DNA from: a virus
Reading direction: 5' to 3' (one strand)
DNA length: 44,910 bases
Virus record (IMG/VR): IMGVR_UViG_3300030331_004310
Span: 1-44,910 of that record
The notes under the pieces were generated by a model. That model searched no databases. It was given only the letters and a program-made list of their open reading frames with translations, and was not told the DNA's origin. How positions within the stretch are numbered: position 1 is the stretch's first letter; each line of letters starts with the position of its first letter. The position numbers were made by a program, and so were the translations under genes. Positions 29,201 through 44,910 of this stretch are shown in pieces.

Positions 29201-32200
29201 CAATAGTAGTAATATGCAATTTTTTCGCTGTCTCTGTTTGAGCCACCTTCTGCGATGATAACCCCGTAGCCTGTAGTATCAAATTGAGTAGCGTCTTCCA
29301 AGTAAATTTTGCTATCTCCTATTGCGATTGGTGCTTTTAACGAAGTTCCATCATTGATAAAGAAAAGAGAATTGGGATGATGTGGAAAAATGGATTCATC
29401 ATGACTATTTTTGTAGGAACAAGTTGCTTCTTTCCAATAATTGTCAATCAAATATGGGAATCCAAATGAAGGAGTCTCAAAGTCTCCAAAGTCTACAATT
29501 CCTCCCGAATCATAACCGCTACGCCCTCCACATGCAAGAGTATTCAAATTCCAAAATCGGCTAACATCTACTACAACAAAGGAGCCTGCCTTTGTTTCCC
29601 AATTTCGCAAATGTGTTGCAAAAGGTTCTTCATTTGAACCTCCCGTAAGAGCAGACCATTTTCCGCCAGAATAAGGCTCAACATCAGCATCAAATGACCA
29701 AATATCTGCATCTTCTCCAATCTTTAATTCTGCGAATACATCTGGATTTCCCATCTGGTCTACTTGGTCAGCAAAAGTGAGGTTGAGTTGGTAATTTTCA
29801 TTTGTTGGAAGCATAAGACCAAAGTCATTCTGACGAAAGCCTCCATCTGCATTTGCTGTTCCATCATTTCGCATATCGGCCCAACCAACAAAACAATGCT
29901 TATACCCGTTGCTTTCATCAACTTGTCGTAAATTGTAAATCGTATGTTCTGGTTTCCATGTTCTTTTCAATCCTTTAACACCGCTGATTGTGCAACCGCC
30001 AGAATATATTCTTTTTCCTGTTCTATTTGCTCCACCATCAGCAAAAGCAGAACTGGCAATCGTCGTTGCAACTATTTGGTCTGGGTCATTATTGACACGC
30101 CCTCCACCATCAGACCATCCTCCATCATTCAATGCTCTTGCTTGCAAAAACGCATAGCCATCACGGGTTCCTCTAAAACCTGTAATTTTTCTTGTTTTGT
30201 AGGTTTTTGAAGTAGGTATTGCTGTGATTGTATGAATGCCATCAAGGTCGGGGAAACCAAAGCCTTCATGCACAATCATTTGACCAAGTTCAAAACCATG
30301 ATTTCCAGCCAACTCAAATCTTTTATTGGATGTGTCCCATGTAAAAGAAGAAGGAGTTGTAATAGCAGATGGATTAGAAATCGCATTTGCAATAACAAAT
30401 TGCGTTTCTCCTGTTTGCGTATCTATCAAATCAACAATAAATTCTTTGATGCCTCGCGATTTTATGGAGTACCACATTCCCGGTTCGTCAAATGAAATAG
30501 TAGTATCTCCTGCATCAACAGATGATGCAAGACCTGTCCAGTTGTTTGAGCCATCTGAATTTATCCATGATAGACGAGCCGCTTGTGTTGCATTTAGAGG
30601 ATGTTGCAAAGCAGACCCTTTGCCTGCTCTGTAAAATGGCTCTGGATGAATAACGCCAAAGCGAGCCTTGAACCATGTAGATTGAGGTAAGTCTCGCATC
30701 CAGCGAGCATGTGCTACACGAAATTGCACACGGTCATATTCTGTTTGATTTGGAGGGTTGGAAAATCCATGTCGGACAATCGCAGGATTTTTGGGAGGAG
30801 TGTTTGTTGCTCCATTCCATGTTGAATAGTTGTAAGCAGAAATAACAGGAGTAGCAACTGATATATTAGAAATGGTATCAATGTGAAATGTAGTTGTTGT
30901 AGGAACTGCTTGGACTACTACTTCAAGTAATTGATGATTATTGGGTGATTGACCTTGGTTTGTATCAAGAATTAAACTTATCGTGTCTCCAATTGATAGA
31001 CCATGTGCAGAACTACTGGTAAGTTGCCATCTTTTACCTCCTTTGTCATTTCCAATAAAGGTGCTATTTCCTGCGCTTGGGCAAGTAAAAATGCGCCCAT
31101 CTGTTGTCGCCGCTGAAGAATCTGTTATTCGCAAAACCACAAGGTCTTTTCCTTGGCTTGCTGTTCTTCCTGCTGTATATTCATAACGAATTGTTGCAAT
31201 AGGATAGTCTCCATCGTAAGCAGTCCCTACTAATTTTATAGTGTCTCCAACAGCATAACCACGATAAGCAGAACCACTTTGAGTGCTTACACCATCATAA
31301 GCGATGTAAATATCCCGTGTTCCTGATAGGCTACGAATATAAAGAATATCTTCAATTTCTACATTTGTTGATGCTCTAAAGCCCATCCATTGATTTTCAA
31401 CATCATTTGGGCCATTTTCATCTTCGTTGATATACATTTGAATCAAAGAAGAAGAAAATAAAGATTGACGACCTCCCAATATATTGCTATATCTTGAGTG
31501 TTCTTCTTGGTCATTTCTTGTAAATCCTAAACTGTTTTGTTTGTATTTCATGTGTCCAATACCAAATAGCAACAAATTGCTAATTGCTGTTGTTTCATGG
31601 CTTTTTTTATCAATAGTAGCGGCCATTGAAATATGATTGTTCAAAGAAAAAAAAGCATTTTGACCAAGTTCCCAAATTGGAAGTGTTCTTCCAAGCACAC
31701 CAAAAGAGTCTCTTGCTCTTATTTTTGTTGATATTGTTCTTGCAACAGTATTTTGTGCATGTTCTACACTTTCAATATGTCCTGTCCAAATTGGGCGGTC
31801 TTCCCCCGATTCAAACATTAGCAAACGCCATTCTGTTGAATCAGAACCAGTTGTTAGGGGAGCAAGAGTAAAATTATTTTCGTCATCTAAAACCGTTATT
31901 TCAGCAGAAGACACTTGATTTGCACCATAATTTATGTTAAAAGATTGCACAGGAGGAAGAATCAAGTGGTTTCCATCAAATTTGTTAGTAAGGGGTAAAG
32001 CAACTCCTACACGGTCAAGAAGGGTTGATACGCACACATAGTCATCAGAACCATGCGCCCAAGTTAAATCCAATGACCAACCTATTGCCGTAGGCATGTT
32101 GTGTCCTGAAATATTTATTGAGCCTTGAGCGAATTGAGTTGTGCTACCATTTGCATAAGCCTTCCATTGATTTGTTGTAAAATCTGGAACAACCTCAATA

Positions 32201-33315
32201 TCAGCCCAATTAGCAGTCTCGGATGGTTGTTCTGCCGGGTCTCCTGCAACAAATCGTGGAAATGCTCCCCCAAGACCAAGATTTGCAAGTGTAAAATTCA
32301 CACTAATAAGTGCTTGCGTATCAGCAAAATCGTTTGTGCTTTTGTTGTAAGTTGTTGTTCCTTTGTAGCCAATTTTCAAAGTATAGGTCAATGTTGTGTT
32401 TGTAATCGCATGAACATTGATTCGCAAATGAAATGATTCTCCTATACCCTTCAAACGAAGTGGGCCATCATAAGAAATTAAACGATTTGTTGCTGTTGTT
32501 GTGCTTGCAGACGAATGACCATTCCCACGCTCAACAAACAAATTGTGAATAAGAAATGGCATTTTAGAAGGAGACTTTACTTCATGTAGGTATTCAGCAG
32601 GGGATGTAGCAGAAGCCACAAGAGTTGGCTTTTCTCCTGTATATACGCTTGCGATTGAACAAGTTGTCATTGTTTTATCTGGCGTATCGTGATTGGGTTT
32701 AGCAGAAGTTCTTGCATTTCCTTTTTGGTAGTAGGAAATAGGGTTGCCTGCGGCTTTGTGGATATTTGCACTTGTAGTAAGGTCTCTTTCATCGTATTTA
32801 CTGGTGGGAGCAGAACCATAACTAAAATCCATTTCGCCAAGAGGAACAAAGTATTGTCCTTGCGAATCATGACCATTACGAAAAGCAAGGTACGAATCAC
32901 CAGAAGCCCCATTGTATTTTTGTCTATTTCCTGCAAAGGAAATTGGATATTGCAAAATTGCTCTTGAGTTGTAAAGTTCACTTTCTACTTCTACAATGTT
33001 TCTTGATAACCAACTTGCATAGCCATCATTGTGAGCCAATTTGTTTTCTGCTGTTGAGGTGTATCTTGAGTCGGCACTAATTTGTGGGTCATCATCATGA
33101 TAACCGCCAGTTCTTACACGATTTGGAAATGAGTTGCGAAACCTTGGATTAAGACGAGCAACTCCACCCAAGGCAGAACCAAAATGTGAAATCGTATGGT
33201 CAAGAGTTCGGTATGAGGGCAGGTTAGCATCGTCAGCAGTTGCTCTTGCTGAATTAAAATCATCGTAGTAGCCCGAAAGCCAGAAGTTGTATTCTGTATT
33301 TACTGTCTTCGTCAT
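26245..33315 (-). CDS. Tail hub / tip protein, very large (2356 aa)
   Basis: It lies directly after the tape measure gene, the usual place of distal tail, hub and fibre proteins. Around residues 455-560 the sequence SFNINYGANQVSSAEITVLD followed by IWTGHIESVEHAQ resembles the hub domain of Tal/gp27-type baseplate proteins. Around residue 940 a DAGDTTISFDEPGMWYS segment of the inserted beta-domain type occurs. Near residue 2090 a Pro/Lys linker (DKPKPKPRPPSP) leads into a C-terminal beta domain that probably binds the host. The C-terminal third is more GC-rich than the rest. Confidence 0.75.
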   Translation of the reverse strand: MTKTVNTEYNFWLSGYYDDFNSARATADDANLPSYRTLDHTISHFGSALGGVARLNPRFRNSFPNRVRTGGYHDDDPQISADSRYTSTAENKLAHNDGYASWLSRNIVEVESELYNSRAILQYPISFAGNRQKYNGASGDSYLAFRNGHDSQGQYFVPLGEMDFSYGSAPTSKYDERDLTTSANIHKAAGNPISYYQKGNARTSAKPNHDTPDKTMTTCSIASVYTGEKPTLVASATSPAEYLHEVKSPSKMPFLIHNLFVERGNGHSSASTTTATNRLISYDGPLRLKGIGESFHLRINVHAITNTTLTYTLKIGYKGTTTYNKSTNDFADTQALISVNFTLANLGLGGAFPRFVAGDPAEQPSETANWADIEVVPDFTTNQWKAYANGSTTQFAQGSINISGHNMPTAIGWSLDLTWAHGSDDYVCVSTLLDRVGVALPLTNKFDGNHLILPPVQSFNINYGANQVSSAEITVLDDENNFTLAPLTTGSDSTEWRLLMFESGEDRPIWTGHIESVEHAQNTVARTISTKIRARDSFGVLGRTLPIWELGQNAFFSLNNHISMAATIDKKSHETTAISNLLLFGIGHMKYKQNSLGFTRNDQEEHSRYSNILGGRQSLFSSSLIQMYINEDENGPNDVENQWMGFRASTNVEIEDILYIRSLSGTRDIYIAYDGVSTQSGSAYRGYAVGDTIKLVGTAYDGDYPIATIRYEYTAGRTASQGKDLVVLRITDSSAATTDGRIFTCPSAGNSTFIGNDKGGKRWQLTSSSAHGLSIGDTISLILDTNQGQSPNNHQLLEVVVQAVPTTTTFHIDTISNISVATPVISAYNYSTWNGATNTPPKNPAIVRHGFSNPPNQTEYDRVQFRVAHARWMRDLPQSTWFKARFGVIHPEPFYRAGKGSALQHPLNATQAARLSWINSDGSNNWTGLASSVDAGDTTISFDEPGMWYSIKSRGIKEFIVDLIDTQTGETQFVIANAISNPSAITTPSSFTWDTSNKRFELAGNHGFELGQMIVHEGFGFPDLDGIHTITAIPTSKTYKTRKITGFRGTRDGYAFLQARALNDGGWSDGGGRVNNDPDQIVATTIASSAFADGGANRTGKRIYSGGCTISGVKGLKRTWKPEHTIYNLRQVDESNGYKHCFVGWADMRNDGTANADGGFRQNDFGLMLPTNENYQLNLTFADQVDQMGNPDVFAELKIGEDADIWSFDADVEPYSGGKWSALTGGSNEEPFATHLRNWETKAGSFVVVDVSRFWNLNTLACGGRSGYDSGGIVDFGDFETPSFGFPYLIDNYWKEATCSYKNSHDESIFPHHPNSLFFINDGTSLKAPIAIGDSKIYLEDATQFDTTGYGVIIAEGGSNRDSEKIAYYYYWNGKGSETHSSGQELEFLNNVFITEYEVITDPKNAVDQLTADITAGSTNSQVVIETNEFAATEADEVDGAFDKVRIYNTTAALYGMRLILNMEGTVKSPAQGTFFSQDKVRVFQNLNLADTWATDSTLPCISDINNVPYQNTNNGDSFGSMLDARGQTIQTILSTMQEKDGSGIGGAIKSLSWLMGRDNRMEFRDSLDTNITLSRSNLFTSNLSTQTGSKITNVRVYYNGNASFVDHPTTIPKDVRWRVLNHPDLFNQSEALDLAKQAFHRESTPRVSIKAEPFRDGINRMVGDGRFGYVADTFRKAYHNDSQSLSWWSNRLGGHPFCGIQNALDSGATTSSGDATLGAGEPYAQLQDESFPATFGFTPSKVAKTSGSGTIAYYTKTAQLIIRDAGVSIDPNTAEFRLDGNGGTRVAITSAGWYQLPCTIGSGVHTLSVYYDGTTLASQTTILHFGNANVNANGTRYHFYGTNSLSHAIQVAYVQNGCPFVSATSGNELRMFIETITGASSYADTTFKLHLCDFDFNETVGSGPAFTPPTLDVLTKHATTSVVLDSNGFVSIQVPSSYSSTQERITFSVNLDYLRDVVRLRGGDTGLNLPSSYGITLSKGTSSGGGAFPMGMRRYPDMGGIADERAAYYAPRLHIVRDVKWVPATTITYTDALIDMTSQSLVIKDVRWSQNARDVEKVQLGLEKIEDHYAYNLVAALRRPPVEGDKPKPKPRPPSPTGPYAPSTPETAGSLGGDVATVPHLLNAATLDGDPSTVALQNSNFGPNQMSNAVHRLMRGKANFRSDTGSSGSTWGVLGSANTGVSSSFDRAIDGIEGSTTTSEGAAIATSDGFSLAGISDPEVGVQGERHSHTINARVPNDTSTGFVSVIASTTLEDITGGGNAEITTTIECVETGATITTTKIVSKGSARQNFVIVPSTHLNGAETPNNTLKITVERKPAQGNDAAGYQTLTIHNLEVRLRRYNIPQDGQSKAFIPY

Positions 33316-36300
33316 AGCCCTATCCCCTGCGCTCTCAACTCATCTAATACTCCGCTTGTGATACGACTCACCATTTCTTCGGTATTGTAGCCATTGAAAA
33401 CATTGGTCTGCACAATTTCTGTCTTATGTAGCAGGCTTTCAACGCCACCTTGCACAACTTGTCTGTAAATTGCACCTGTGAAATTTTGTCTTTGTCCAAA
33501 GAATAACTCTTCTCTTGCATTCGCAAATGTTTCTTGGTCTTGCGTAAGTGAGTTATACAGACGCTTTTCACCCTCAATAAGAGCCGTGTTCGTATCGTCT
33601 TGCACCTTAAGAAGATTTTCGTAATAATTTTGTGTGAACTCCATTGACATATTAGAAATACCTTCACCTGCCGCTTCATATTCTGCGATAAATGCTTCTG
33701 CCGCCGCCTTTCCTTCTGCGCCTTTACCAAATCCTTTTACAAATGCTTCTCCATTTTCAAATCCTCTTACTGAAAACATTCTATCATCATCGCTAACAAA
33801 TAAACGACCAAGCATAGAGCCTTTAAAACCTGTTTGTGGATTTGCCGTTGTTAATGCAAGGTCGCTGTAATTATTTACCATTTCAATAGCACTTCTGCTA
33901 ACAATTTCTTGTGCTTGGTCAATCGCAAGAACTTGTTGTTCTACATTTTGTAATTCATCAAGACTTTGCTGTAGACCTGCGGCTAATTCTGTATCACCAA
34001 GAGCAGTTGCGTTTGCAATATCCTCTGTTAAAGCGGTAATTCTAACCCCTAAATCAGCAAGAACAGTATCGGTTAGTTCTGCATTCTGTTTAAGGTCATT
34101 AAAAGTAGCATCATTAAACAAACCTTCTGATACTGCTTCTTTACCAGCCGCACCCGACAAATCACTTAGAAGAGTCTGTGTAGTATTCAAAGAGTCATTT
34201 AATTTTTCAATATCCAACATATCGCTACGAAATTTATCACCAAGCAGATTGTCAAATATGAGGAATCCTCCAATAGCCGCAATCGCAAGTAGACCACCTG
34301 TAAGAACACTTAAAGATGCAGTAGCGGCAACAGAAGCACCTGTAAGAGTGTGAAGTGCGCCCACACCAGACACAATAGCAGGAACAAAGGAAGTTAGCAT
34401 AACTAAAGACACACCATACATCATGGCTGACATTTGTTTGCTATCATCAACAATCATCGGAAGAATGATAGTCGTAGCCATAGCCGTTGTATTAACTGCT
34501 TTCAAGGCATTTTCTTTAGTCATTAGGGCCAAAGCAGTTGCTTTTATTTGCGCTCCAAAAGTCATTTCAGATGCTCCCGAAGCCTTCATTTGTGCTTGGT
34601 ATGCTTTTTCCGCACCGAGAATCTCTTGGATTCGGATTCGTTTTTCTGCAAGAGTCTGTATTTCTCCTTGAGCAACAGCGATTCGTTCTCTAATTTCATC
34701 TGTTCCAAGACCCTTTGCAATACGCTCGGCTTCTTCTAAAGTCAAAGCCGCTATAATGTCTTGCTGTTCTCGCTGACGCATAGCATGGTCAGCATTTTGG
34801 TTAATCAATTTTTCTTTGACTTCTGCATCAAGGGATTGATATAGCACAACTTCTTGTTGCATAAGACCAGATTGTGTCTGTAGCAATTCATTGTAAGAGT
34901 TCTGCGTCTCAACTTGTTTGTAGATGCTTTCAATACTACGCTTTTCCATAATCATACGGCCTTCTTTTTGAGCCGTAGTGATTTGCATTGTTTTTTGCTC
35001 ACGCTTCATTTGAGCAACGGCTTGAGCAACTGCTGACCTTTGACTTTGACGAGCCGCAGTATTTTGAGCAAGAGCATTTTGGTTTCTTGTAAGAAGCGCA
35101 TTTTCTTTTTTGATTGCATTACGACCTGCTTTAGCAAGGTCAAGTTCTTTTAGCCGAGCATGATTGTTTGCAATCTTTCTTTCTATCCTTCTTTTTTCTA
35201 CATTAAGGTCAGCCAATTTAGCAGATTGTTCTTTGCGAAATAGACCTGCAAGTGTGATGCGGGATTGTTGTTCCCGATTCATAAGAGCAAGACGATGTTC
35301 TCCTGTAGAAACCAATTTCTTTTCAAATCCAACTTGTAAATTTGCTACTAAATTTGCTTCTGCATAACTTCGTACACGCTCTTGAATATCGGCTTGTCCT
35401 TTTGCTTGCACAGCATTAAGAGTTCGGAATGCAACAACAAGATTTCCGATTTGGAACAAAATATCAGAAACAGGACGAACCATTTTATCATAGGTCTGTC
35501 CAAGGAACATAACCTTGCCTACCAAGTCCTGAATTGCATCAGACTTAAGAGCATATCCAGCCATTTTGAGGAATTGTTCTTCTGCCAAAAAAGCCTGCAT
35601 ATAGGCTCCTGTAAGGTCTTCTCCTATCTTGGCTCTCATATTTTCAATAGTAGCCTCCATTTGTTTTGCAGTAAAAACCGCTGATTCTGTTTTGTACCCA
35701 AATTCTTCAATGGCTCCATACTCTGCACGAAACGCCGCAGTTGAAAGTTCTGCAAGACGAACTCGGTTTTCCATAATTTTAAGGAACTTGATGTAGTGGC
35801 GAGAACCTGCGATATTGACAGCCAAGGCTCGTTTTTCTTCAGAAGTCATAGCATCATAGGCAGGAGTCAATTTTGTGATAACATCCGATAATTTGAGTTG
35901 GGCAACTCCTTGTGCATCAAGACCGGGAATAAGTTCTGCAATAGCCTTTGTAGCCTCGTTATTTGCATTTCCAAGACGCTGATAAATCATTCGCAAACCT
36001 GTTCCGGCCCTGCTTACTTCTTCACCTGTTTCAAGCAGAAGTGCTGACATAGCGGCCATATCACCAATACTTTCACCAGCGATATTTGCTTGACTTGCAA
36101 ATTGGTTGAGAACAAAGGTAATGTCTTCCATGATAGCCACAGAAGAGTTCTCAATTGTATTCAACTGATTAAGAGTGTGGATAGACGATTGACGAACAAT
36201 GTTGGCCTGTTCTTCGGCTTCCAAAGCCTCATATTGAGCCTTAGTAAGACCGCCATACATAAATTGAGTCTGCTGTGCTAAGTTGATAAAACGGTTCATA

Positions 36301-36743
36301 CCCATTTCTGTTTCCATTTCACCAACTTGTGCAAGCAAAAGACCTTGACGGGTAGCCTCAATAATTGCTTCTTGCGATTTCAATACTCCTTTTAATTGAG
36401 AAGTTCTTGCCGCCGCCGCAAGTGCTTCTGCTCCTGTAAAAGCAAAAGCCTCACCCATTTCTCTTGCCGATTGAGCAAAGCCCATATATGCTGTATCATC
36501 CGAATAAAATTTGCGAACACGAACTAATTGCTGTTCAAATTCAAAAAAGGATTCAACAACTTGATTTACAGCACCAGCAACAAAGTTGCTCATTTCTGTA
36601 AATCCATCTTGGACAGCACCGAGGGCATCAAGAATAATTGCTTGTTGAACCGTCATAGCGGCCTTGCTGTCAGCAAGAAGACGAGTAGATTGAAGACGAC
36701 CTACGACATCAAAAAAGACTCTTGCCGCACCTGTCTTTGCCAT
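33312..36743 (-). CDS. Tail tape measure protein
   Basis: The 1143-residue protein is long, helical and Ala/Gln-rich, with the N-terminal pattern of phage tape measure proteins (FEQQLVRVRKFYSDDTAY ... AREMGEAFAFTGAEALAAA). A hydrophobic region lies near residues 760-835 (LVMLTSFVPAIVSGVGAL, GGLLAIAAIGGFLIF). It sets tail length and may be delivered to the membrane on entry. Length predicts a tail of very roughly 170 nm if 1.5 A per residue applies. The start overlaps the end of the chaperone frame (TAATG). Confidence 0.9.
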   Translation of the reverse strand: MAKTGAARVFFDVVGRLQSTRLLADSKAAMTVQQAIILDALGAVQDGFTEMSNFVAGAVNQVVESFFEFEQQLVRVRKFYSDDTAYMGFAQSAREMGEAFAFTGAEALAAAARTSQLKGVLKSQEAIIEATRQGLLLAQVGEMETEMGMNRFINLAQQTQFMYGGLTKAQYEALEAEEQANIVRQSSIHTLNQLNTIENSSVAIMEDITFVLNQFASQANIAGESIGDMAAMSALLLETGEEVSRAGTGLRMIYQRLGNANNEATKAIAELIPGLDAQGVAQLKLSDVITKLTPAYDAMTSEEKRALAVNIAGSRHYIKFLKIMENRVRLAELSTAAFRAEYGAIEEFGYKTESAVFTAKQMEATIENMRAKIGEDLTGAYMQAFLAEEQFLKMAGYALKSDAIQDLVGKVMFLGQTYDKMVRPVSDILFQIGNLVVAFRTLNAVQAKGQADIQERVRSYAEANLVANLQVGFEKKLVSTGEHRLALMNREQQSRITLAGLFRKEQSAKLADLNVEKRRIERKIANNHARLKELDLAKAGRNAIKKENALLTRNQNALAQNTAARQSQRSAVAQAVAQMKREQKTMQITTAQKEGRMIMEKRSIESIYKQVETQNSYNELLQTQSGLMQQEVVLYQSLDAEVKEKLINQNADHAMRQREQQDIIAALTLEEAERIAKGLGTDEIRERIAVAQGEIQTLAEKRIRIQEILGAEKAYQAQMKASGASEMTFGAQIKATALALMTKENALKAVNTTAMATTIILPMIVDDSKQMSAMMYGVSLVMLTSFVPAIVSGVGALHTLTGASVAATASLSVLTGGLLAIAAIGGFLIFDNLLGDKFRSDMLDIEKLNDSLNTTQTLLSDLSGAAGKEAVSEGLFNDATFNDLKQNAELTDTVLADLGVRITALTEDIANATALGDTELAAGLQQSLDELQNVEQQVLAIDQAQEIVSRSAIEMVNNYSDLALTTANPQTGFKGSMLGRLFVSDDDRMFSVRGFENGEAFVKGFGKGAEGKAAAEAFIAEYEAAGEGISNMSMEFTQNYYENLLKVQDDTNTALIEGEKRLYNSLTQDQETFANAREELFFGQRQNFTGAIYRQVVQGGVESLLHKTEIVQTNVFNGYNTEEMVSRITSGVLDELRAQGIGL

Positions 36744-36970
36744 TATTCACCAACCCAATTGTCTAACATTGAACCCATTTTTTCTGATGATATGGTGGCT
36801 CTTTTTTGGTCTCTCCTTGCGACTGCTCGTTTTGCTTTACTTGATGATTTAGCCTGTTCTGTTTGTTCATTGATACGCTCTGCAATTTCACTTGCAACTG
36901 CAAGGTCAAATTCCAACTTATGAAATCCACCAGCGCAGTCGTATTTTTCGTATAAATCGCTTGGCATCAC
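36743..36970 (-). CDS. Second frame of the tail-assembly chaperone (frameshift extension)
   Basis: This frame, directly before the tape measure gene, encodes PSDLYEKYDCAGGFHKLEFD and a basic helical end. It stays open upstream of its GTG/ATG start back through the end of the preceding gene and is in the -1 frame relative to it. A slippery CCCTTTG lies at 37024-37018. It is therefore likely made mainly as a fusion with the upstream frame, like gpGT of lambda-type tails: about 205 residues from ATG 37359. Independent initiation at GTG 36970 or ATG 36967 is possible, though the GGAG site is very close. Confidence 0.7.
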   Translation of the reverse strand: MMPSDLYEKYDCAGGFHKLEFDLAVASEIAERINEQTEQAKSSSKAKRAVARRDQKRATISSEKMGSMLDNWVGE

Positions 36971-37011
36971 TCCTTTAAACGCTGAACATAGGCTTGGCGC
37001 AACTTGCGATA

Positions 37012-37359
37012 TTACTCCAAAGGGACTGCACCCTCCAAATCATCCCCACGGATAAAATTAAGAATACGCATTATTTCTTCGGATGTTAGCAAATTTACAT
37101 CAATATCTGCATCAAGCACACATTTTGGAAGCCACGCTTGGATTTGGTCTTCAAGACCTCCACCTGCTTCATCAAGTAGCGTAGCAAATTCTTCTTGCTG
37201 TTCATCTGTCCATTCAGCGGGGTCTGTGCCAAAATGACGACACTTTCGCAAGGTCATGGCTTGAACTTTCTCAATTTTGAGTTTGTCCATTCCCGATGCT
37301 TGACGCACCATAATTGTTTTTCCGTTGTCTAATTCAATTTCTTTCTTCAATACTGGCAT
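37012..37359 (-). CDS. Tail-assembly chaperone, short form (115 aa)
   Basis: It lies between the tail tube gene and the tape measure gene, the standard place of gpG-like chaperones. The product begins MPVLKKEIELDNGKTIMV and is acidic and helical later (WTDEQQEEFATLLDEAGGG). ATG 37359 is preferred, with GAAGTGA 6 nt upstream; GTG 37368 is the alternative. TAA lies at 37014-37012, only two codons after the slippery site. A -1 shift at that site would extend the protein into the next frame. Confidence 0.75.
   Translation of the reverse strand: MPVLKKEIELDNGKTIMVRQASGMDKLKIEKVQAMTLRKCRHFGTDPAEWTDEQQEEFATLLDEAGGGLEDQIQAWLPKCVLDADIDVNLLTSEEIMRILNFIRGDDLEGAVPLE
37018..37024 (-). promoter_or_regulatory. 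-1 ribosomal frameshift site CCCTTTG
   Basis: Read on the - strand, the zero frame is GTC CCT TTG GAG TAA. The heptamer C CCT TTG has the X XXY YYZ form, so tandem slippage re-pairs to CCC TTT and reading continues GGA GTA ATA into the second frame with no stop until 36743. A small stem CGCA-AGT-TGCG begins about 9 nt downstream. No experimental evidence is available. Confidence 0.65.
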
Positions 37360-37434
37360 TGTATTCACTTCTCTTTTCTTCTTTTCTATCCATTGATAAT
37401 GAGCGACTGCTTATGCTCATCATGGAAAATCACC

Positions 37435-37629
37435 TCAAGGCGTATCATCATAAGTAATGACAGCAATAAAATTGTTTCCAACTGCCATTTTTGCAATAGA
37501 AATATGGAGCAATATATCTGATGCTCCAAGTGTCCTAAGCGTTGCTTGGATTTGCGAATGAATTGTTAGTTGTGTGCCATAGCAGACTTTGGTTGACAAA
37601 GTTGCTGGGTTGCCTATTGGGTGAGCCAT
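37435..37629 (-). CDS. Small virion-region protein (64 aa)
   Basis: GAGGTGG precedes ATG 37629, right after the tail tube stop. The product is beta-rich and hydrophobic (ILLHISIAKMAVGNNFIAVITYD). Position between tail tube and chaperone suggests a tail assembly or tube accessory protein; no family recognised. The 75 nt between this gene and the chaperone start contain only the latter's ribosome binding region. Confidence 0.5.
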   Translation of the reverse strand: MAHPIGNPATLSTKVCYGTQLTIHSQIQATLRTLGASDILLHISIAKMAVGNNFIAVITYDDTP

Positions 37630-37639
37630 TTAGACCACC

Positions 37640-38668
37640 TCAAGCATCATAGTTGGCTTGTCCGTCTGTAGATTTTGCAGTTATTTTGACCATATTGTTG
37701 GCTTCGCCTAAATCATAAAGACCGTGGAAAGAAACAGACATAGTCTGTGAATCACGACCTGATACCGAGGTTTCGGGCATTTCGTAAATCAATTTCGCAA
37801 AGTCAAAACGAATAAAGTGGTTTGAATCAACTTCAAACAAAACCGACAATGCAGGAGTAGTAGAAGAAGGATTAACGACATTTGCTGTTCCGGGTCTTAA
37901 TTCATCAAAGAACACTTCATTGTCTGCCACATCGGATGTAAGCAAAGCCTTGTGAAAAGTAATACTACCGGACACTTCACGCATGGTGCTGGGAGGTGGA
38001 CGAACACAAGTGTCTTCCGAGAGATTGTAGGAGTTATCTACATCTCGGTTAGTCTTGATTTCAAAGTCAATGCTCTGCACAAGGTTAGAGTGAGCAGAAG
38101 TAGAGGCGGCGGCTTCAAATCGCACAAATGCCTTATGGAAGTGTGCGGCATCGCCTGTGTAAGAAGGCACAGCCGTACCGAGGGTTGCAGTAGCACTACT
38201 TTGCTTTTGACCTACTGTATTAACAGTCATCATAGCATATTCGCCAATGCTTGAAGACACAGAAATACTTTCAATAACTTGACCGGGGAAAATGTGTTCT
38301 TTGTCGTCTCGCCCAACACGGAAAGTGTAAGAAGGCAATTGTGCAGTTGAATTTACAAGATTTTCAGTAAAAGTACGCGTATCGGAAGCCGAACCGCCGG
38401 GAGCATCTTCGCCCATAATACCGTGAAGTAGCATCAAAGTAAAATCATCTGGCTGTAGAGCCATAGTAATGCTACCTTCTGAATACAGTCTGCTAATGAC
38501 TGCTTTTGCAGAACCATAATAGTTCATGTCTTCTCTTTTCAAGACATCGTAAATTTGTTGGAAACCTTCGCTTTCAACTTCGCCAACGGCTTCTGCCGCA
38601 ACTGCGCTACCAAAACTTGATTCTTTACCCACACTCACATATCGTGTGTGATTGCCGCTTACGCCCAT
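37640..38668 (-). CDS. Major tail tube protein
   Basis: The 342-residue protein lies directly before the chaperone/tape measure genes and has the strand-rich pattern of tail tube proteins: early ESSFGSA, a YSEGSITMALQPDDFTLMLL helix/strand transition, and a later VSGSITFHKALL element. Proteins of this type polymerise around the tape measure. It has its own candidate TATA box upstream, fitting high late expression. Confidence 0.8.
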   Translation of the reverse strand: MGVSGNHTRYVSVGKESSFGSAVAAEAVGEVESEGFQQIYDVLKREDMNYYGSAKAVISRLYSEGSITMALQPDDFTLMLLHGIMGEDAPGGSASDTRTFTENLVNSTAQLPSYTFRVGRDDKEHIFPGQVIESISVSSSIGEYAMMTVNTVGQKQSSATATLGTAVPSYTGDAAHFHKAFVRFEAAASTSAHSNLVQSIDFEIKTNRDVDNSYNLSEDTCVRPPPSTMREVSGSITFHKALLTSDVADNEVFFDELRPGTANVVNPSSTTPALSVLFEVDSNHFIRFDFAKLIYEMPETSVSGRDSQTMSVSFHGLYDLGEANNMVKITAKSTDGQANYDA

Positions 38669-38690
38669 GCCTTACACATGGAATATACCA

Positions 38691-38698
38691 CTTAAAAA
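38691..38698 (-). promoter_or_regulatory. Candidate archaeal TATA box for the tail tube gene
   Basis: On the - strand, CTTTTTAAGTGG places TTTAAG 28 nt before ATG 38668, in one of the few gaps of the late array (38669-38704). A short SD-like AAGG precedes the start. Spacing fits the + strand promoters. Confidence 0.5.
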
Positions 38699-38704
38699 GA
38701 TTGC

Positions 38705-39778
38705 TCACACTTCTCGCAGAAACATCCGAATCTTTTTCATATAAGTTAATGTTAGAGTGTGAATGCAAATAACTTCGTCATCATCCATTTTGCTATCCAA
38801 CTGTGCAGTATAAGAAATGATAGAATCCACACCATCTTGTAGACCTGTCTGGGTGTAAAGTTCATCAAAGACCTCACCCATAATTGAAAGGCCAAGGCGA
38901 TAGGCATTTTTGTAATCTGTTCCTCTGGTGGTAATGTAGACAATGATATTGTACCTTTGGTCTGTTCTGGTTCCAGCGAGTGTCAAAAAGTCTGGTGATT
39001 CTGTTCTTTGTGTAAGAACATGAACAGAAGGCGGAGCCACGCGATTTATCATCGCTCTTGATGACAAGTCGTAGCCATAGACTATTCCTCCTTCTCCTAC
39101 ATGGTTTTTCAAATGAAAACGGTTGCTTTGTTTTAATGTCTCTACAATACCAAATCCTGTTCTCATTAGACTGTTTGTAGTAAAGTCTGACATATTCATT
39201 TCATCGGGAGAAAATGCCCCAAAGTCGGTGTAGTAGATTGCATACCAATCTACAGAGCCAGAAGAGTTCCCAAAGTATGCTCCTTGAGCAGTAGATGAAG
39301 AACCAGTTGTAGTCAAGTAATGTTGAACTGCATCGTCATCATCAATAATTTCTTTCATGTAAAGATTAGCAACTCCGGTATTTGCAAGACTCAATCGCAA
39401 AAGACAGGGAACTGGTTTTTCTTCTGCAAGAACAAGGTCAAGTTCTACAGTTGTTTGTGTTGATACTCCAACTAATTTTAGTTTGTTTGCATCATTTGAT
39501 GCCTTGACTTCTACACGATGAGTGCCATTGTCAAGAGCCATAAGAACTTCATTTTCATTTGGAGCAGAGTTGTAGCCAATTGCACAAATTAAAGTCATTT
39601 CTGTGTTTGTTGTGCTATACTTCCATTGTTGGTCAGTTATTCTCCAAGCCTTACCACTAACAGAACCACCAGAACCAGAAGTCAAAGTCCAAGGAGTATT
39701 GTTTCTACCATTTGGGTTTGCTGGGTCATTACCCGAAAGACGGGACACCCAAAATTCGTTTGATTTTGCGATTGCCAT
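38705..39778 (-). CDS. Probable tail terminator with N-terminal LamG-like domain
   Basis: The 357-residue protein has two parts. Residues about 40-215 show a concanavalin/LamG-like jelly roll (AWRITDQQWKYST, ALDNGTHRVEVKA, YFGNSSGSVDWYAIYYTDFG). Residues about 230-357 fit the tail terminator/completion fold (RYNIIVYITTRGTDYKNAYR, helix LGLSIMGEVFDEL, strand VICIHTLTLTYMKKI), and the gene sits between the gp10-like protein and the tail tube, the terminator's place. The fusion would display a carbohydrate-binding-type domain at the neck. Confidence 0.6.
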   Translation of the reverse strand: MAIAKSNEFWVSRLSGNDPANPNGRNNTPWTLTSGSGGSVSGKAWRITDQQWKYSTTNTEMTLICAIGYNSAPNENEVLMALDNGTHRVEVKASNDANKLKLVGVSTQTTVELDLVLAEEKPVPCLLRLSLANTGVANLYMKEIIDDDDAVQHYLTTTGSSSTAQGAYFGNSSGSVDWYAIYYTDFGAFSPDEMNMSDFTTNSLMRTGFGIVETLKQSNRFHLKNHVGEGGIVYGYDLSSRAMINRVAPPSVHVLTQRTESPDFLTLAGTRTDQRYNIIVYITTRGTDYKNAYRLGLSIMGEVFDELYTQTGLQDGVDSIISYTAQLDSKMDDDEVICIHTLTLTYMKKIRMFLREV

Positions 39779-39782
39779 ATTA

Positions 39783-40532
39783 TCATCCTCTGTAGCCTAA
39801 AGTCGTCGTAAAACCATATTGATTTCCCATACTTTCCATGTGCATTTTTATGTCTTGTTTGAAATTTGTCATGACATAATCTTCTATGTAGAGCATATAA
39901 TCGTAAAAACCAAGACCGGGATGCTCACCTCTTTTTACCATTCCATGTGTATTGAAGATTTCTCTACCAGTCTTTCTTTTGAAATTTCTTGATGACTTAA
40001 CAAATGTAGGCAAATTATCTGGATAATTAAATTCTTGAAAACCAGTTGCAACTATTTGCGAAAGAAACCCAGATGGCCTACTTCTACTTCTTACACCAAA
40101 TTTAGCGTCTCGTAAATTTTTTCCTGTGTGAATACGAATGAATGTGCTTCCTTCTGGTTCTTGAACCTTCAAAGCCCTACCAACACGATTATAAATGTTG
40201 TCTGCTTCTCTTTTATCGCCCATCTGTCCTGCCATTTCCTTGAGACCTTCTTTTGCTTCTGATACTGCTTGACGACATAGTTCAAGCAAAATATCTTTTA
40301 CGAATCTATCTCCATCAATACCAACACGATTTAGAGCGCGCTTGAAATTTTCTGCATCCCAATCAATCCTAAATTGCGATTGAATAGCACCATAAGAAGA
40401 AGGTCGGTCTCTTTTGTAATTAGAAATGCCATCTCCAAAGGTCATATTACCTACCCGACGAGGGCCACCTCTTTGTCCTACTTGTCGTGGCCCACCTGCA
40501 CCATAACGGAGCATCCCCCTTACTGCGCCCAT
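39783..40532 (-). CDS. HK97-gp10-like neck/minor tail protein
   Basis: Start ATG 40532, two bases after the adaptor gene stop, with GGGAAGG upstream. The 249-residue protein has a basic Gly/Arg N-terminal segment (GGPRQVGQRGGPRRVG) and a central part (RVGIDGDRFVKDILLELCRQAVSEAK, read in parts; FIRIHTGKNLRDAKFGVRSR) like HK97-gp10/gpZ-type proteins that complete the head-tail joint. The C-terminus carries the conserved 'HPGLGFYDY' type element of the family. Confidence 0.65.
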   Translation of the reverse strand: MGAVRGMLRYGAGGPRQVGQRGGPRRVGNMTFGDGISNYKRDRPSSYGAIQSQFRIDWDAENFKRALNRVGIDGDRFVKDILLELCRQAVSEAKEGLKEMAGQMGDKREADNIYNRVGRALKVQEPEGSTFIRIHTGKNLRDAKFGVRSRSRPSGFLSQIVATGFQEFNYPDNLPTFVKSSRNFKRKTGREIFNTHGMVKRGEHPGLGFYDYMLYIEDYVMTNFKQDIKMHMESMGNQYGFTTTLGYRG

Positions 40533-40533
40533 A

Positions 40534-41061
40534 TCAAGCCTTCCCAAGATGTGCAAGAACAATCAGACAATGTTTTCCTCTTTCAAAAAAGTCGCTACCT
40601 CGCAAATCGCCATTTTGTTGCATTGTTGCTTCATCCATCAAATAAAAACCAGATGCCATATCAGCACATATTTCTCTAACAACATGAGCAAGTTCGCCTT
40701 GTTGCACAGTTTTACCTGTGCTATGACTAAAAGAAATACCTGTGCATCCTGTCAAATCATTAGATGATTTACCAGTCCAAGAAAAAGAATCACCATTTAT
40801 GTTTCCGCTACCAGCAGTTGCAAATGAGGAAGCATCAGCGAGTGTAATAGTAGTTGCCCCAACAGCCACAGCACCATTCAAAGTTGATTCATAAACCCCT
40901 CTACTTGGTTCATCACGACCATAGTCAAGAAAAGTCTGGTCAATAAAAATAGCGGCTCTGCGAATGCAGTTGTCTAAACGGCTTTGCGCTCTTGTTCTTT
41001 GTGCGCTATCCAGTCCTATACGAGAACCAACATCAGCAAGACTACAATAATAATTACTCAT
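40534..41061 (-). CDS. Head-tail adaptor protein with inserted beta domain
   Basis: The 175-residue protein is helical at both ends (YCSLADVGSRIGLDS, CIRRAAIFIDQTFL; AHVVREICADMASGFYL), as in gp6-like adaptors. Between them lies a beta insertion GAVAVGATTITLADASSF ... GDSFSWTGKSSNDLTGC, a module common in virion proteins. The ATG at 41061 has GGAG about 10 nt upstream. Confidence 0.65.
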   Translation of the reverse strand: MSNYYCSLADVGSRIGLDSAQRTRAQSRLDNCIRRAAIFIDQTFLDYGRDEPSRGVYESTLNGAVAVGATTITLADASSFATAGSGNINGDSFSWTGKSSNDLTGCTGISFSHSTGKTVQQGELAHVVREICADMASGFYLMDEATMQQNGDLRGSDFFERGKHCLIVLAHLGKA

Positions 41062-41362
41062 TCTTGACACTCTCCTTCAATTTTTCAATGAGGAGAGCCT
41101 TTGTTCCTTCTGCATCAACGCCATGTTCAATGCAAAGTTGAGCCAATTCATCTTTCTTCATACGCTTCATAGCAGAAACGCTGGGAAGACTTTTGGCTTC
41201 TTCAACAACCTCTTCAATGGAAGTCGCAAGTTCAATGGCTTCATCAAGACTGATTTCGCCATCTGCAATTGCTTTCTTCCATTTATCACTCATTTTTGAA
41301 AGGACTTTAATTCCATATCCAACTACAAAAATCGCAAGACCCATTCCAACTAATTCATCCAT
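41054..41362 (-). CDS. SAP-domain protein with N-terminal hydrophobic segment (102 aa)
   Basis: Start ATG 41362 with GGTGA 6 nt upstream. Residues about 4-20 (LVGMGLAIFVVGYGIKVL) are hydrophobic and may be a membrane span. Then comes an acidic helix (DEAIELATSIEEVVEEAK), and the C-terminus MKKDELAQLCIEHGVDAEGT is a SAP-type DNA-binding motif. A membrane-plus-SAP protein in the neck gene cluster is unusual and may act at entry or egress. Confidence 0.6.
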   Translation of the reverse strand: MDELVGMGLAIFVVGYGIKVLSKMSDKWKKAIADGEISLDEAIELATSIEEVVEEAKSLPSVSAMKRMKKDELAQLCIEHGVDAEGTKALLIEKLKESVKNE

Positions 41363-41534
41363 TTTTTTCACCTTCTTTGTATTCAATAGATACCGCCTTT
41401 GAAAGTGGCACTACCGAAAAATGATGTAATTCACCGTCTCTAAATAGACGGTAGCCATGTGGTGTCTCTTCAATGTTCACATTGACATAGCAACGCTCTG
41501 GGGGAATATAGACTATTTTTCCTTTTCTTTTCAT
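41355..41534 (-). CDS. Unknown 59-residue protein
   Basis: Start ATG 41534, with GGAGAG 6 nt upstream. The product is beta-rich with a basic opening (MKRKGKIVYIPPERCYVNV). No family recognised. The stop overlaps the start of the SAP-domain gene. Confidence 0.5.
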   Translation of the reverse strand: MKRKGKIVYIPPERCYVNVNIEETPHGYRLFRDGELHHFSVVPLSKAVSIEYKEGEKNG

Positions 41535-41536
41535 AC

Positions 41537-41710
41537 TTAACTCTCCATAAATGCCTTTATTTGGTCTGAAGTCCATTGAGGAAGGTCATCATACCAGCAT
41601 GATTGCTTGATGCGGTATATGCCTTTGCTTACAATAAAACATGAGTCTTCAACTAAGTGCGACCAATCATGGTCAGGGAATCGCTCTGCCATTTTTTCGT
41701 GTAGCATCAT
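41537..41710 (-). CDS. Unknown 57-residue protein
   Basis: The frame begins at ATG 41710, which overlaps the stop of the fibre gene, with TAGGAG about 10 nt upstream, and stops at TAA 41539-41537 two bases before the next ATG. The product has Trp, His and Cys residues (FPDHDWSHLVEDSCFIV, SCWYDDLPQW). Full coupling to both neighbours supports it; function unknown. Confidence 0.5.
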   Translation of the reverse strand: MMLHEKMAERFPDHDWSHLVEDSCFIVSKGIYRIKQSCWYDDLPQWTSDQIKAFMES

Positions 41711-43635
41711 GATATTGCATCTCCTAATCTTGTAATTGTAATACTACTTCTATTGTCATTAAATGCGATAATGTTTGAATTTTGTCCATTGGAACGCAGA
41801 GAAAAGAAAATACTTGTATCACTTCCTCCATTTGGTATTTCGTAAATGACTGTATGAGTCAGTTTTTTGTTCCCCACACCATTGTTAAGAACCTGTATTC
41901 TATCAGTTCCTAACTGGCCTGTGCTTGAGGCATCGGTGCTAATAACAGCCCACATATCACGGGATTGTGTAGATGTTGCAGGAAAGAACTCTACTTGGAA
42001 AACGATTTGATAGATGCCACCCTTGGTCAATACAACATGGTCATTGGTGTCATTGACAAGCGTTATTGCTGGATGTGCGCCAGTAGTTGATTCACCCCAA
42101 TTGGTTGTATTGGCAATATCTAAAACCGTATAAGCACCGCTAACAACATAATTTGCGGCGTTGCCTGATAGGTTTTTCAAAAAAAGTCTCATGTGCTGTA
42201 ATGCTGGTGTATTGGTAGCACCCGATTCTATGCCATCTAATTTGGTTTTATCGGCACTTGACATAGACCCAGCGGCACTTGTTGTAGCGGCACTTATTCC
42301 AATTGACACATCGCCAGAAGCACCACCGCCGGTTATTGGTGCTGATACATTTACAGCCGTTATATCACCACTACCTCCTCCACCCCCACCAGCAACCTCA
42401 CTTGACCCATGATACAATTTATTGCTATCGCTACTGTTAAGCCAAAGTGTGTTAGCGGCTACTCCACCCGGATTTGAACTAACAGGCGTTAATTCAAGAC
42501 CTGTAGGGTCAATCAAACCGCTTACATCTAATTTACCATCAATCGCAAAAACATTTGTTGAGTTGTTAAATGTAAGTCGTGAAGAAGTAGTAAGTGCATT
42601 TCCATCGCCACCAAAAGGAATTTGATATTGAGTAATGTCTGAAAGACCTGTTCCTCCATTTGCAACACCAATCACTTCTCCTTCTTTGGGATGATAAATA
42701 CCATCAGCAATAGGAAAAAAGCCCCAAGTTCCTTTGATAGTAGGACGATTGATTAAATGAATCGCACAAGCCCCTGCGCCTTTCAAAGATGCTCCTACGC
42801 CTATAGTAAGATTGGTCAAATAAAGACGGCTATTTGCATTTAATTTAGCCCATGCACCGGCTCCATCTGCTGTTGCAACAATTGACATTCTGCGAAAAGT
42901 AAAATCGCATTTTTGATAATCTGCAAGGTTAGAAGTTGGAATTAAAAAGCCAGATGATTTACCTTGAAATGTCCAAGTTGCATGTCCTCCATCAAAGGCA
43001 GAAAGACCGCCAGCATCAATCGTAAGTTGCGAACTTGATGAATCAATAATAAAATTTTTCAATTTATCGTTATCTGTAGGAATTGGTGATGCTGGCCCAA
43101 ATGTTCCTGAACTAATTCGCAAAGTATTGAAATTGACATTTGTTGTGTTTGCTACTGTTGGAGAAACAAATTGGGGAGTCTTGTTTCCATTACCGCCTAA
43201 TTTAACATTAGGGTAAATTCCTGTATCAAAATACAAGTCGCCAGATGCAGGAGCCATTGTGTAGGTTGTGTTTTCTCTTGATGCTGTAGTATCAAATGGG
43301 CTATCTGTCGTTCCATTTTGAACATAGCATGTTCCGCTTTTGTAAGGTGGTGTCCCTGTAAATACAAATCCCCTTGCACTTGCGGCAATAATTTTTCCGG
43401 CAACAGAAATCGTTAGACCATTCAAATCTATGTCTGTTGCAAGAATTAAATTCAAAGCAAAAGTAGATTGCAACTCTATTTCATTTATGTTTGCGATATC
43501 AAAATTGCAATTAGCAACTGCCGCCGCATCAAAAATTGCTTTGTCAGAAGCACCCGGAGGGCCAGAAGTAGGAATCCAATTTCCCGCTACAGATGCGGTT
43601 TGGCTTACAACTCCTGTCCATTGGTAATCAGTCAT
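41707..43635 (-). CDS. Fibre/appendage protein with C-terminal receptor-binding-type domain
   Basis: The 642-residue protein has an N-terminal beta-solenoid-like part (NWIPTSGPPGASDKAIFDAA, later LTIDAGGLSAFDGG), then GGGGGGSGDITAVNVSAP and SSADKTKLDGIESGATN around residues 417-470, a signature of phage tail fibres, and a C-terminal 170-residue jelly-roll-like domain typical of receptor-binding heads. It lies between two head-tail adaptor genes, so it may be a head, collar or neck fibre. Confidence 0.7.
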   Translation of the reverse strand: MTDYQWTGVVSQTASVAGNWIPTSGPPGASDKAIFDAAAVANCNFDIANINEIELQSTFALNLILATDIDLNGLTISVAGKIIAASARGFVFTGTPPYKSGTCYVQNGTTDSPFDTTASRENTTYTMAPASGDLYFDTGIYPNVKLGGNGNKTPQFVSPTVANTTNVNFNTLRISSGTFGPASPIPTDNDKLKNFIIDSSSSQLTIDAGGLSAFDGGHATWTFQGKSSGFLIPTSNLADYQKCDFTFRRMSIVATADGAGAWAKLNANSRLYLTNLTIGVGASLKGAGACAIHLINRPTIKGTWGFFPIADGIYHPKEGEVIGVANGGTGLSDITQYQIPFGGDGNALTTSSRLTFNNSTNVFAIDGKLDVSGLIDPTGLELTPVSSNPGGVAANTLWLNSSDSNKLYHGSSEVAGGGGGGSGDITAVNVSAPITGGGASGDVSIGISAATTSAAGSMSSADKTKLDGIESGATNTPALQHMRLFLKNLSGNAANYVVSGAYTVLDIANTTNWGESTTGAHPAITLVNDTNDHVVLTKGGIYQIVFQVEFFPATSTQSRDMWAVISTDASSTGQLGTDRIQVLNNGVGNKKLTHTVIYEIPNGGSDTSIFFSLRSNGQNSNIIAFNDNRSSITITRLGDAIS

Positions 43636-43641
43636 AAAATA

Positions 43642-44037
43642 TCACGCTGTCTCTGTTCGTGTCTTGGTTTTAGAGACTACGAAGGCAGAGCCACCGGCTT
43701 CGGCAATTGCAGACATGAGTTCATTTGCTCTTGTTTCAAAATTTTGCAATTGCGCCCGAATACGAATATCTGTCCTTCTTTGCTCTGGTTCGGGGAAATA
43801 ACTTGGAATTGTGTCAATCATTACACGCAAGCAATCGCAAGCAACTAACATTTTGATTGCTGATTCTTTAACGGTCTCATCGTTTCCAACGCTGTCCGAA
43901 AGACCATAAAGAGTTGCAGAGCGAGCCTTTTTGTTCACCTCTGCGGTGCGAATAGTAAGGTATTCGCTAATCGTTGCATCGTTGAGACCACGGGGGCGAT
44001 TCAACAAATCACGAATTTGCGCTACTGTTATCGCCAC
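43642..44037 (-). CDS. Head-tail adaptor (gp6-like), 131 aa
   Basis: Opening ITVAQIRDLLNRPRGLND followed by long helices (TVKESAIKMLVACDCLRVMI, LQNFETRANELMSAIAEAG) fits the helical connector family that binds the portal. Position directly after the small head genes agrees. The short C-terminal tail is basic and Thr-rich. Confidence 0.55.
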   Translation of the reverse strand: MAITVAQIRDLLNRPRGLNDATISEYLTIRTAEVNKKARSATLYGLSDSVGNDETVKESAIKMLVACDCLRVMIDTIPSYFPEPEQRRTDIRIRAQLQNFETRANELMSAIAEAGGSAFVVSKTKTRTETA

Positions 44038-44425
44038 TCTTGCTCACCTTCTTACTTGCTTTCTTTTTTGGAGCAGGTTTCTTCTTTTTAGGTTCCGACT
44101 TTGGCTCTGCGTATTCTTCCGTCTGTGGAACATCAATAAGAGTATAGGACTCGCTGTAGAATGCACGACCAAGGGGAAACATGGCTCCGGTCTTGATAAG
44201 CCTACGAGCAAAATCGCTGTCGGGAACCCATACAGCCGCACCAAATGGAATATCGGCTGGTAGGTTTTGTTGTCCGTAAAAGCGAGTCTTGATTCGTCGG
44301 AAAAGGTAGCCTTTGCCTTCGCCCCAAGTGTTAAAGCGGTGCATCATAGCAGAGTATGAATCTTCTGCTGGAATGGGAATGCCTTTATCCTTGAGAGCCT
44401 TTGCAATTGCGGCCTTACTCTTCAT
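44009..44425 (-). CDS. Head-region protein with SAP-like start and Lys-rich tail (138 aa)
   Basis: The N-terminus AIAKALKDKGIPIPAEDSYS followed by MMHRFNTW resembles a SAP-like helix pair. The middle is beta-rich (FGAAVWVPDSDFARRLI), and the C-terminus is strongly basic (PKKKKPAPKKKASKKV). The basic tail suggests contact with DNA inside the head. No named family. Confidence 0.55.
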   Translation of the reverse strand: MKSKAAIAKALKDKGIPIPAEDSYSAMMHRFNTWGEGKGYLFRRIKTRFYGQQNLPADIPFGAAVWVPDSDFARRLIKTGAMFPLGRAFYSESYTLIDVPQTEEYAEPKSEPKKKKPAPKKKASKKVSKSGDNSSANS

Positions 44426-44627
44426 CCTTCACCACTTCCTTTTTCGGAGTTGCTTTGGGTTTTGGAGCAGACTTTTCAACAGGCTTTGCAAGAGATTCGG
44501 CATAGTCAGCGGCTTGTCGTCGGGTCAAAAGACCAACGATGCCTTCTGCTTCTTTCTTGGTCAATGACCGACCAAGACGACGCTCGGCGTAGCCCAAAAG
44601 AAACGATTCGTATTCTGTGAAGGACAT
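44415..44627 (-). CDS. Unknown 70-residue head-region protein
   Basis: Helical start (FTEYESFLLGYAERRLGRSL, TKKEAEGIVGLLTRRQA) and a Lys/Pro/Ala-rich tail (APKPKATPKKEVVK). The tail is similar in style to that of the next protein, so the two may be related functionally. It lies directly behind the probable capsid gene. Confidence 0.55.
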   Translation of the reverse strand: MSFTEYESFLLGYAERRLGRSLTKKEAEGIVGLLTRRQAADYAESLAKPVEKSAPKPKATPKKEVVKDEE

Positions 44628-44644
44628 TTAATCACCGCCTAACC

Positions 44645-44910
44645 TCAAGCGGTAATGTTGTCAATCACACAAATGCGGTTGTTCTTGCCAGAAGCGGCTC
44701 CGTCCTGCATTTCGTGGACGATGCAACCCATGTAGCCCGTAAGCATCCAGTCAAAGCCAACACCGGGAATGCGGGTCAACTCGGTCTCTTGGAAGCCATC
44801 ACCGTTGTATTGGAAGAACTCGGCAGTCTCCGAACCGGGGATGAGCAACAGAGCCTTGTCAGCAAGACGGCTGTTTCGGGTGTAGTAGATGGTCAAGTTG
44901 CTCATTCGCT
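44645..44910 (-). CDS. Probable C-terminus of the HK97-type major capsid protein (partial)
   Basis: The frame is open to the window edge; the codon before ATG 44905 reads Arg, so this ATG need not be the start. The visible sequence (RLADKALLLIPGSETAEFF, ELTRIPGVGFDWMLTGYMG, NNRICVIDNITA) has the strand order and closing strand seen at the C-terminus of HK97-fold capsid proteins, and small head genes and the adaptor follow it, as expected. The short fragment makes the identification tentative. Confidence 0.45.
   Translation of the reverse strand, partial: RMSNLTIYYTRNSRLADKALLLIPGSETAEFFQYNGDGFQETELTRIPGVGFDWMLTGYMGCIVHEMQDGAASGKNNRICVIDNITA

Follow-up and report, generated by a model that had tools for sequence, protein, structure and literature searches.

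A conserved slippery heptamer predicts −1 frameshifting between tail assembly chaperone frames in a virus whose replication genes are of archaeal type

A predicted frameshift joins two overlapping frames between the tail tube and tape measure genes

The window analyzed here is IMG/VR virus record IMGVR_UViG_3300030331_004310 (44,910 bp), and all positions refer to this whole stretch. Two overlapping open reading frames (ORFs) on its minus strand, hereafter G and T, are predicted from sequence to form the tail assembly chaperone gene of a tailed double-stranded DNA virus whose replication genes are archaeal in type, and to be joined by programmed −1 ribosomal frameshifting; we put the probability of this reading at about 94%. 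G begins with the ATG at 37359 and terminates at a TAA (37012-37014), its 3' end reading GTC CCT TTG GAG TAA, so that one sense codon (GAG) separates the slippery heptamer CCCTTTG from the stop. In the −1 frame, T extends to a TAA at 36745-36743 and comprises 93 codons including CCC TTT, or 91 after them, and the G-T fusion would have 114 + 91 = 205 amino acids, with EGAVPL and GVISQVAPSLCSAFK on the two sides of the predicted trans-frame junction. The coordinates, the frame, the heptamer, the 91 open codons, and the fusion length given in the original prediction, which was made from this DNA alone, were all exact. In-frame X_XXY_YYZ heptamers occur 32 times in the 8,619 codons of the window genes, so that one would fall by chance within the five final codons of a given gene in ~2% of cases. 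The support is comparative and consists of a conserved heptamer, conserved coding in the −1 frame, the lack of a conserved independent start, a tail-gene context, and a chaperone-like fold.

The slippery site and the −1 frame are conserved among diverged relatives

Profile searches of IMG/VR viral contigs recovered 71 distinct loci holding G and its downstream region, from which 54 representatives with <90% nucleotide identity to each other (range 49-90%) were taken; counts out of 54 below refer to this set. CCCTTT followed by G, A, or T was found at the same place in 68 of the 71 G-anchored loci. An independent search anchored on the downstream T frame only gave the same hexamer in 62 of 62 distinct places, 25 of which were absent from the first set. 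Across relatives, the stop of G shifts between 7 and 22 nucleotides (nt) after the first slip base and the position of the heptamer is fixed. The rest of G in these relatives contains 13 in-frame X_XXY_YYZ heptamers per 5,840 codons, none of which is CCCTTT.

The codons GTC/ATC-CCT-TTR ranked 1, 2, and 3 of ~110 columns for synonymous-codon conservation, with a synonymous excess of 0.74, 0.59, and 0.53, respectively, as compared with a mean of 0.065 (standard deviation 0.097) over the other 108 columns. The Pro at the slip is encoded by CCT in all 54 representatives, as opposed to 29% of the Pro codons in the rest of G. Where Val precedes this Pro, its codon is GTC in 27 of 30 cases (12% of Val codons elsewhere), and where Ile does, ATC was counted 21 times at an expected share of 20%. 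The preceding residue itself is variable (Val, Ile, Cys, Thr, and others), and its third base is C in 94% of the sequences, indicating that the nucleotide, not the amino acid, is conserved.

In the relatives, T has 93-112 amino acids, is uninterrupted wherever no contig end cuts it, and is conserved from its first residues (PFG..VAPxLCSxFKGxLPSDL). The alignment that had been proposed as a check on the prediction thus revealed a retained heptamer and an open −1 frame amid flanking synonymous sites that vary.

G is likely a tail assembly chaperone

The AlphaFold2 model of G (predicted local distance difference test score, pLDDT, of 94.7) has two strands and four helices, and in that of T, residues 2-15, which immediately follow the slip, form a helix predicted with confidence. 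In the Foldseek viral list for G, the first entry is a 51%-identical relative, and tail assembly chaperones or the "pre-tape measure frameshift protein G" are at ranks 2, 3, 4, 6, 10, and 12, including those of mycobacteriophages and of a Xylella phage, respectively. Among the PDB entries listed, the HK97 chaperone 2ob9 ranks fourth, with a weak match (E 0.71). No named sequence family scored above threshold for T. Each of these fold scores is weak by itself; taken with the gene order of tube, G/T, and tape measure, they favor a tail assembly chaperone as the clear reading of G, and the identity claimed at the outset is supported by synteny and fold together.

Gene content points to a probable archaeal host

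The window encodes a clamp loader similar to the RFC small subunit (NF001679), whose best PDB matches are 2chg, 2chq, and 1iqp, all archaeal structures. It also encodes a Hef/XPF-type nuclease, a family-B DNA polymerase (PolB), a PCNA-like factor, and a pyrimidine-dimer glycosylase. Based on this gene content, the host is quite likely an archaeon, probably of the marine Poseidoniales, and the virus may be classified as magrovirus-like. The RFC, Hef/XPF, and PolB genes support the earlier label of an archaeal-type virus as a probable one.

A genuine frameshift in a virus of a bacterium that carries archaeal-like replication genes is an alternative that we consider unlikely but not negligible. 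PolB and RFC-like clamp loaders occur in T4-like phages as well, and no cellular genome ties the virus to a host: a scan of GTDB genomes with the tube profile found no relative, and one with the polymerase profile gave only a weak 53-residue match on an Oscillospiraceae metagenome-assembled genome contig. However, the best RFC matches outrank the T4 clamp loader, the ERCC4 nuclease scores highest against Hef among the NCBIfam models, and the best known phage match of PolB is a Halorubrum virus. Also in favor of an archaeal host, PolB, the ERCC4 nuclease, and a DNA glycosylase are reported together in almost all magroviruses (PMC10160649).

Points against the frameshift and alternative explanations

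Several observations weigh against the frameshift reading as a whole. Three diverged representatives (L101, L110, and L115) lack the first X of the heptamer and read [A/G]CCTTTTC (ACCTTTTC or GCCTTTTC), in which the A-site tRNA could still re-pair perfectly on UUU. The fold matches of G to known chaperones are weak (E 0.008-0.1; template modelling score 0.25-0.48), and searches of Pfam and PHROG gave no consistent or convincing family for G and no named chaperone family above threshold. No conserved 3' structure was found downstream of the slip in folds of the window and of the relatives' alignment. Finally, the host assignment rests on gene content, the GTDB scans having given no useful match.

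T could instead be a separate gene that is translated from GTG 36970 or ATG 36967, by termination-reinitiation or from its own weak ribosome binding site, with an incidental heptamer. The window and a few close relatives do have an ATG or GTG beside GGAG 54-57 nt after the slip, and a viral relative of T in UniProt is entered as a separate 85-amino-acid protein. The original prediction had described this second start as poorly placed, with GGAG almost touching it, and such is the arrangement in the window. It is, however, not conserved: just 11 of the 54 representatives have a start codon at +54/+57, and one locus (L111) lacks any start codon within the initial 150 nt of T. The nominal start falls after conserved T residues and after the first predicted helix, and the codon constraint on GTC-CCT-TTG would be left unexplained. 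Reinitiation is a poor explanation because starts are rare (11/54, and 1/54 at or before the slip) and a start at +57 would delete the helix at T residues 2-15; we regard a separate T gene as very improbable.

Even less probable is that CCCTTT is conserved for dual coding in the −1 frame, without slippage. CCC TTT is indeed also read as Pro-Phe in that frame, but such coding would need a −1 translation start upstream; just one of the 54 representatives has a −1-frame start codon at the slip or upstream of it, and the upstream −1-frame stops are just 9-75 nt away. A single contig taken alone might suggest one gene split in two by a recent indel or by an error in sequencing or assembly. The comparative data already refute this, as the arrangement recurs in 71 distinct loci with nucleotide identity as low as 49% and has a real G stop that changes position.

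Proposed mechanism and possible stimulatory signals

Given a programmed frameshift, we infer that slippage would occur at an efficiency that leaves most ribosomes reading G through to its stop, giving the 115-amino-acid product. A minority would pause at C_CCU_UUG. There, the tRNAs for Pro and Leu would shift to pair with CCC and UUU, and −1-frame translation would then yield the G-T fusion of ~205 amino acids. By analogy with phage lambda, the role of G may be to coat the tape measure protein and that of the T part to recruit tail tube subunits.

Many −1 frameshift sites have a 3' structure. A search here for a conserved 3' stem or pseudoknot, by folding of single sequences, by z-scores at 12 offsets, and with RNAalifold, revealed nothing specific. 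The small stem that had been proposed ~9 nt downstream did not hold up, as it folds no better than shuffled sequence (z +0.33, +1.18) and has no consensus in the alignment. Folding z-scores just downstream of the slip (−0.6 to −0.8) are the same as at unrelated positions. The sole consensus helix, in which the slippery CCTTTG pairs with an AAAGG 40 nt on, was set aside since the ribosome would have melted it.

Upstream of the slip, most representatives have a GGAGG, GAGG, or GGTG motif 7-8 nt before the CCT codon, a spacing close to the 6-9 nt seen at the start signals that these genomes have for G and the tape measure gene. The frequency of this motif is 0.80, as compared with a median of 0.07 at the other codons of G, none of which matched it. 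Its Glu codon is GAG in 38 of the 46 Glu-bearing representatives, against 26% usage elsewhere; another Glu column is also GAG-rich. These patterns are suggestive of a stimulatory role, in which the motif may cause pausing. It would be a helper at most because some relatives (L183, L203, L214, and L221) lack it. An upstream hairpin, GAGGG/CCCTT, overlaps the slip, could not be separated from the Shine-Dalgarno-like motif with these data, and was not retained.

We tentatively suggest, as a possibility that we think somewhat doubtful, that a widespread group of marine archaeal viruses keeps a C_CCU_UUR −1 frameshift that lacks a 3' structure and is driven by pairing of the upstream GGAGG with archaeal 16S rRNA at start-like spacing. 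If true, archaeal ribosomes would support efficient −1 recoding with 5' signals only.

A tRNA-Pro(UGG) gene is located between the two gene modules of one relative (L226:8011-8083; IMGVR_UViG_3300029448_000025), and the slip has a Pro codon in the P site. As a candidate helper of slippage it was rejected, being present in one of 15 records and absent from the 14 others.

Relation to known frameshifting systems

Frameshifting at the tail assembly chaperone gene is widespread in tailed phages. Phage lambda G/G-T and its tailed-phage counterparts share with the window the overlapping ORFs between tube and tape measure, a −1 shift near the end of G, and a short and a long product. They differ in that the chaperone of the window has no detectable homology to named families, its heptamer is CCCTTTG/A/T, and its host is probably archaeal.

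For tailed viruses of archaea, −1 shifts at the chaperone gene were predicted earlier in the haloarchaeal HVTV-1, HCTV-1, HCTV-2, and HCTV-5 (PMC5009743, PMC8211752), from a comparative set far smaller than the one used here. HCTV-2 also has the order of tube, chaperone (as a joined coding sequence), and tape measure. Alignment with hhalign of the chaperone and tube of the window group to those of HCTV-2 detected no homology. According to PMC8211752, the only experimentally shown case in archaea is fucA1, encoding an alpha-L-fucosidase of Saccharolobus solfataricus, in which the archaeal ribosome also shifts by −1 at a heptamer (A_AAA_AAT); unlike the viral site, it is in a cellular enzyme gene and was shown in a single lineage (PMC8211752). 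The earlier claim that archaeal −1 frameshifting is rarely documented has to be qualified in that predictions already existed for haloarchaeal viruses at this very gene. In the literature searched, we found no report of −1 frameshifting in magroviruses or other marine archaeal viruses.

New here are the lineage, the C_CCU_UUR site, and the strong comparative evidence, as well as a chaperone family for which the databases searched contain no named sequence relative. So far, −1 frameshifting in archaea has comprised the one experimentally shown gene and a few single-genome virus predictions (PMC8211752). More than 70 diverged loci with selection acting on the slippery codons themselves make it possible to define a recoding site of archaeal type by statistical means. 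Defined natural variants, including the three that lack the first base of the heptamer, allow tests of such a site, and the latter would test single-tRNA slippage on U_UUU. For annotation, T should be joined to G and not called as a separate small ORF.

Magroviruses and Aoguangviridae share with the viruses studied here PolB, the RFC small subunit, the ERCC4 nuclease, and opposed replication and virion modules (PMC10768690, PMC10160649), the Aoguangviridae having two oppositely transcribed modules (PMC10768690), and one relative has a GroEL-like chaperonin. The likeness is to published descriptions; in the phage collection searched, neither the tube protein nor G had a match. The longest relatives have 60-74 kb and 40-50% guanine + cytosine (GC), as opposed to 92 kb and 31.5% for the magrovirus type virus. 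The chaperonin gene is located beside replication genes in a 73.8 kb relative (L231:1240-2829).

Gene neighborhood and genome layout

The minus-strand order is tail tube, a 64-amino-acid ORF, G, T, and tape measure (Table 1).

Table 1 Features of the predicted frameshift locus and its neighbors in the window
Feature	Position	Strand	Evidence or remark
Tail tube protein (context)	37640..38668	−	Pfam PF18906 E=1.8e-15; phrog_290
64-amino-acid ORF between tail tube and chaperone	37435-37629	−	
G, short tail assembly chaperone, 115 amino acids, product of standard termination	37012..37359	−	ORF; 54 diverged relatives aligned; AlphaFold2 pLDDT 94.7; chaperone fold neighbors
GGAGG, Shine-Dalgarno-like, 7 nt before heptamer; possible 5' stimulator	37032..37036	−	GAG bias; start-like spacing; missing in a few relatives
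Slippery heptamer CCCTTTG, phase C_CCT_TTG (−1: CCC_TTT)	37018..37024	−	68/71 G-anchored loci; 62/62 T-anchored places; codon constraint ranks 1-3
T, −1 frame extension, 91 codons past heptamer; proposed only as G-T fusion	36743..37024	−	Open and conserved from slip in 54 representatives; AlphaFold2 helix residues 2-15
GTG ATG, nominal start of second ORF, not thought functional	36965..36970	−	Start at +54/+57 in only 11/54 representatives; conserved T residues lie before it
Tape measure protein (context), directly after T	33312..36743	−	Pfam PF10145 E=2e-12; phrog_1272 and others

Rightward genes (~50% GC) are those of replication and repair, and leftward genes (~41% GC) are virion genes. Within this one virus, the GC content is 49.9% for the replication module (1-26000) and 41.0% for the virion module (28000-44910). 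The split is milder in one relative (G016; 47/45% vs 40%), and there is little or none in two others (G014 and G017). The tape measure gene is followed by a 2,356-amino-acid ORF (26245-33315), for which no Pfam or PHROG match was found at E≤0.001. It is 38% conserved in a relative and probably encodes a large tail tip or fibre protein.
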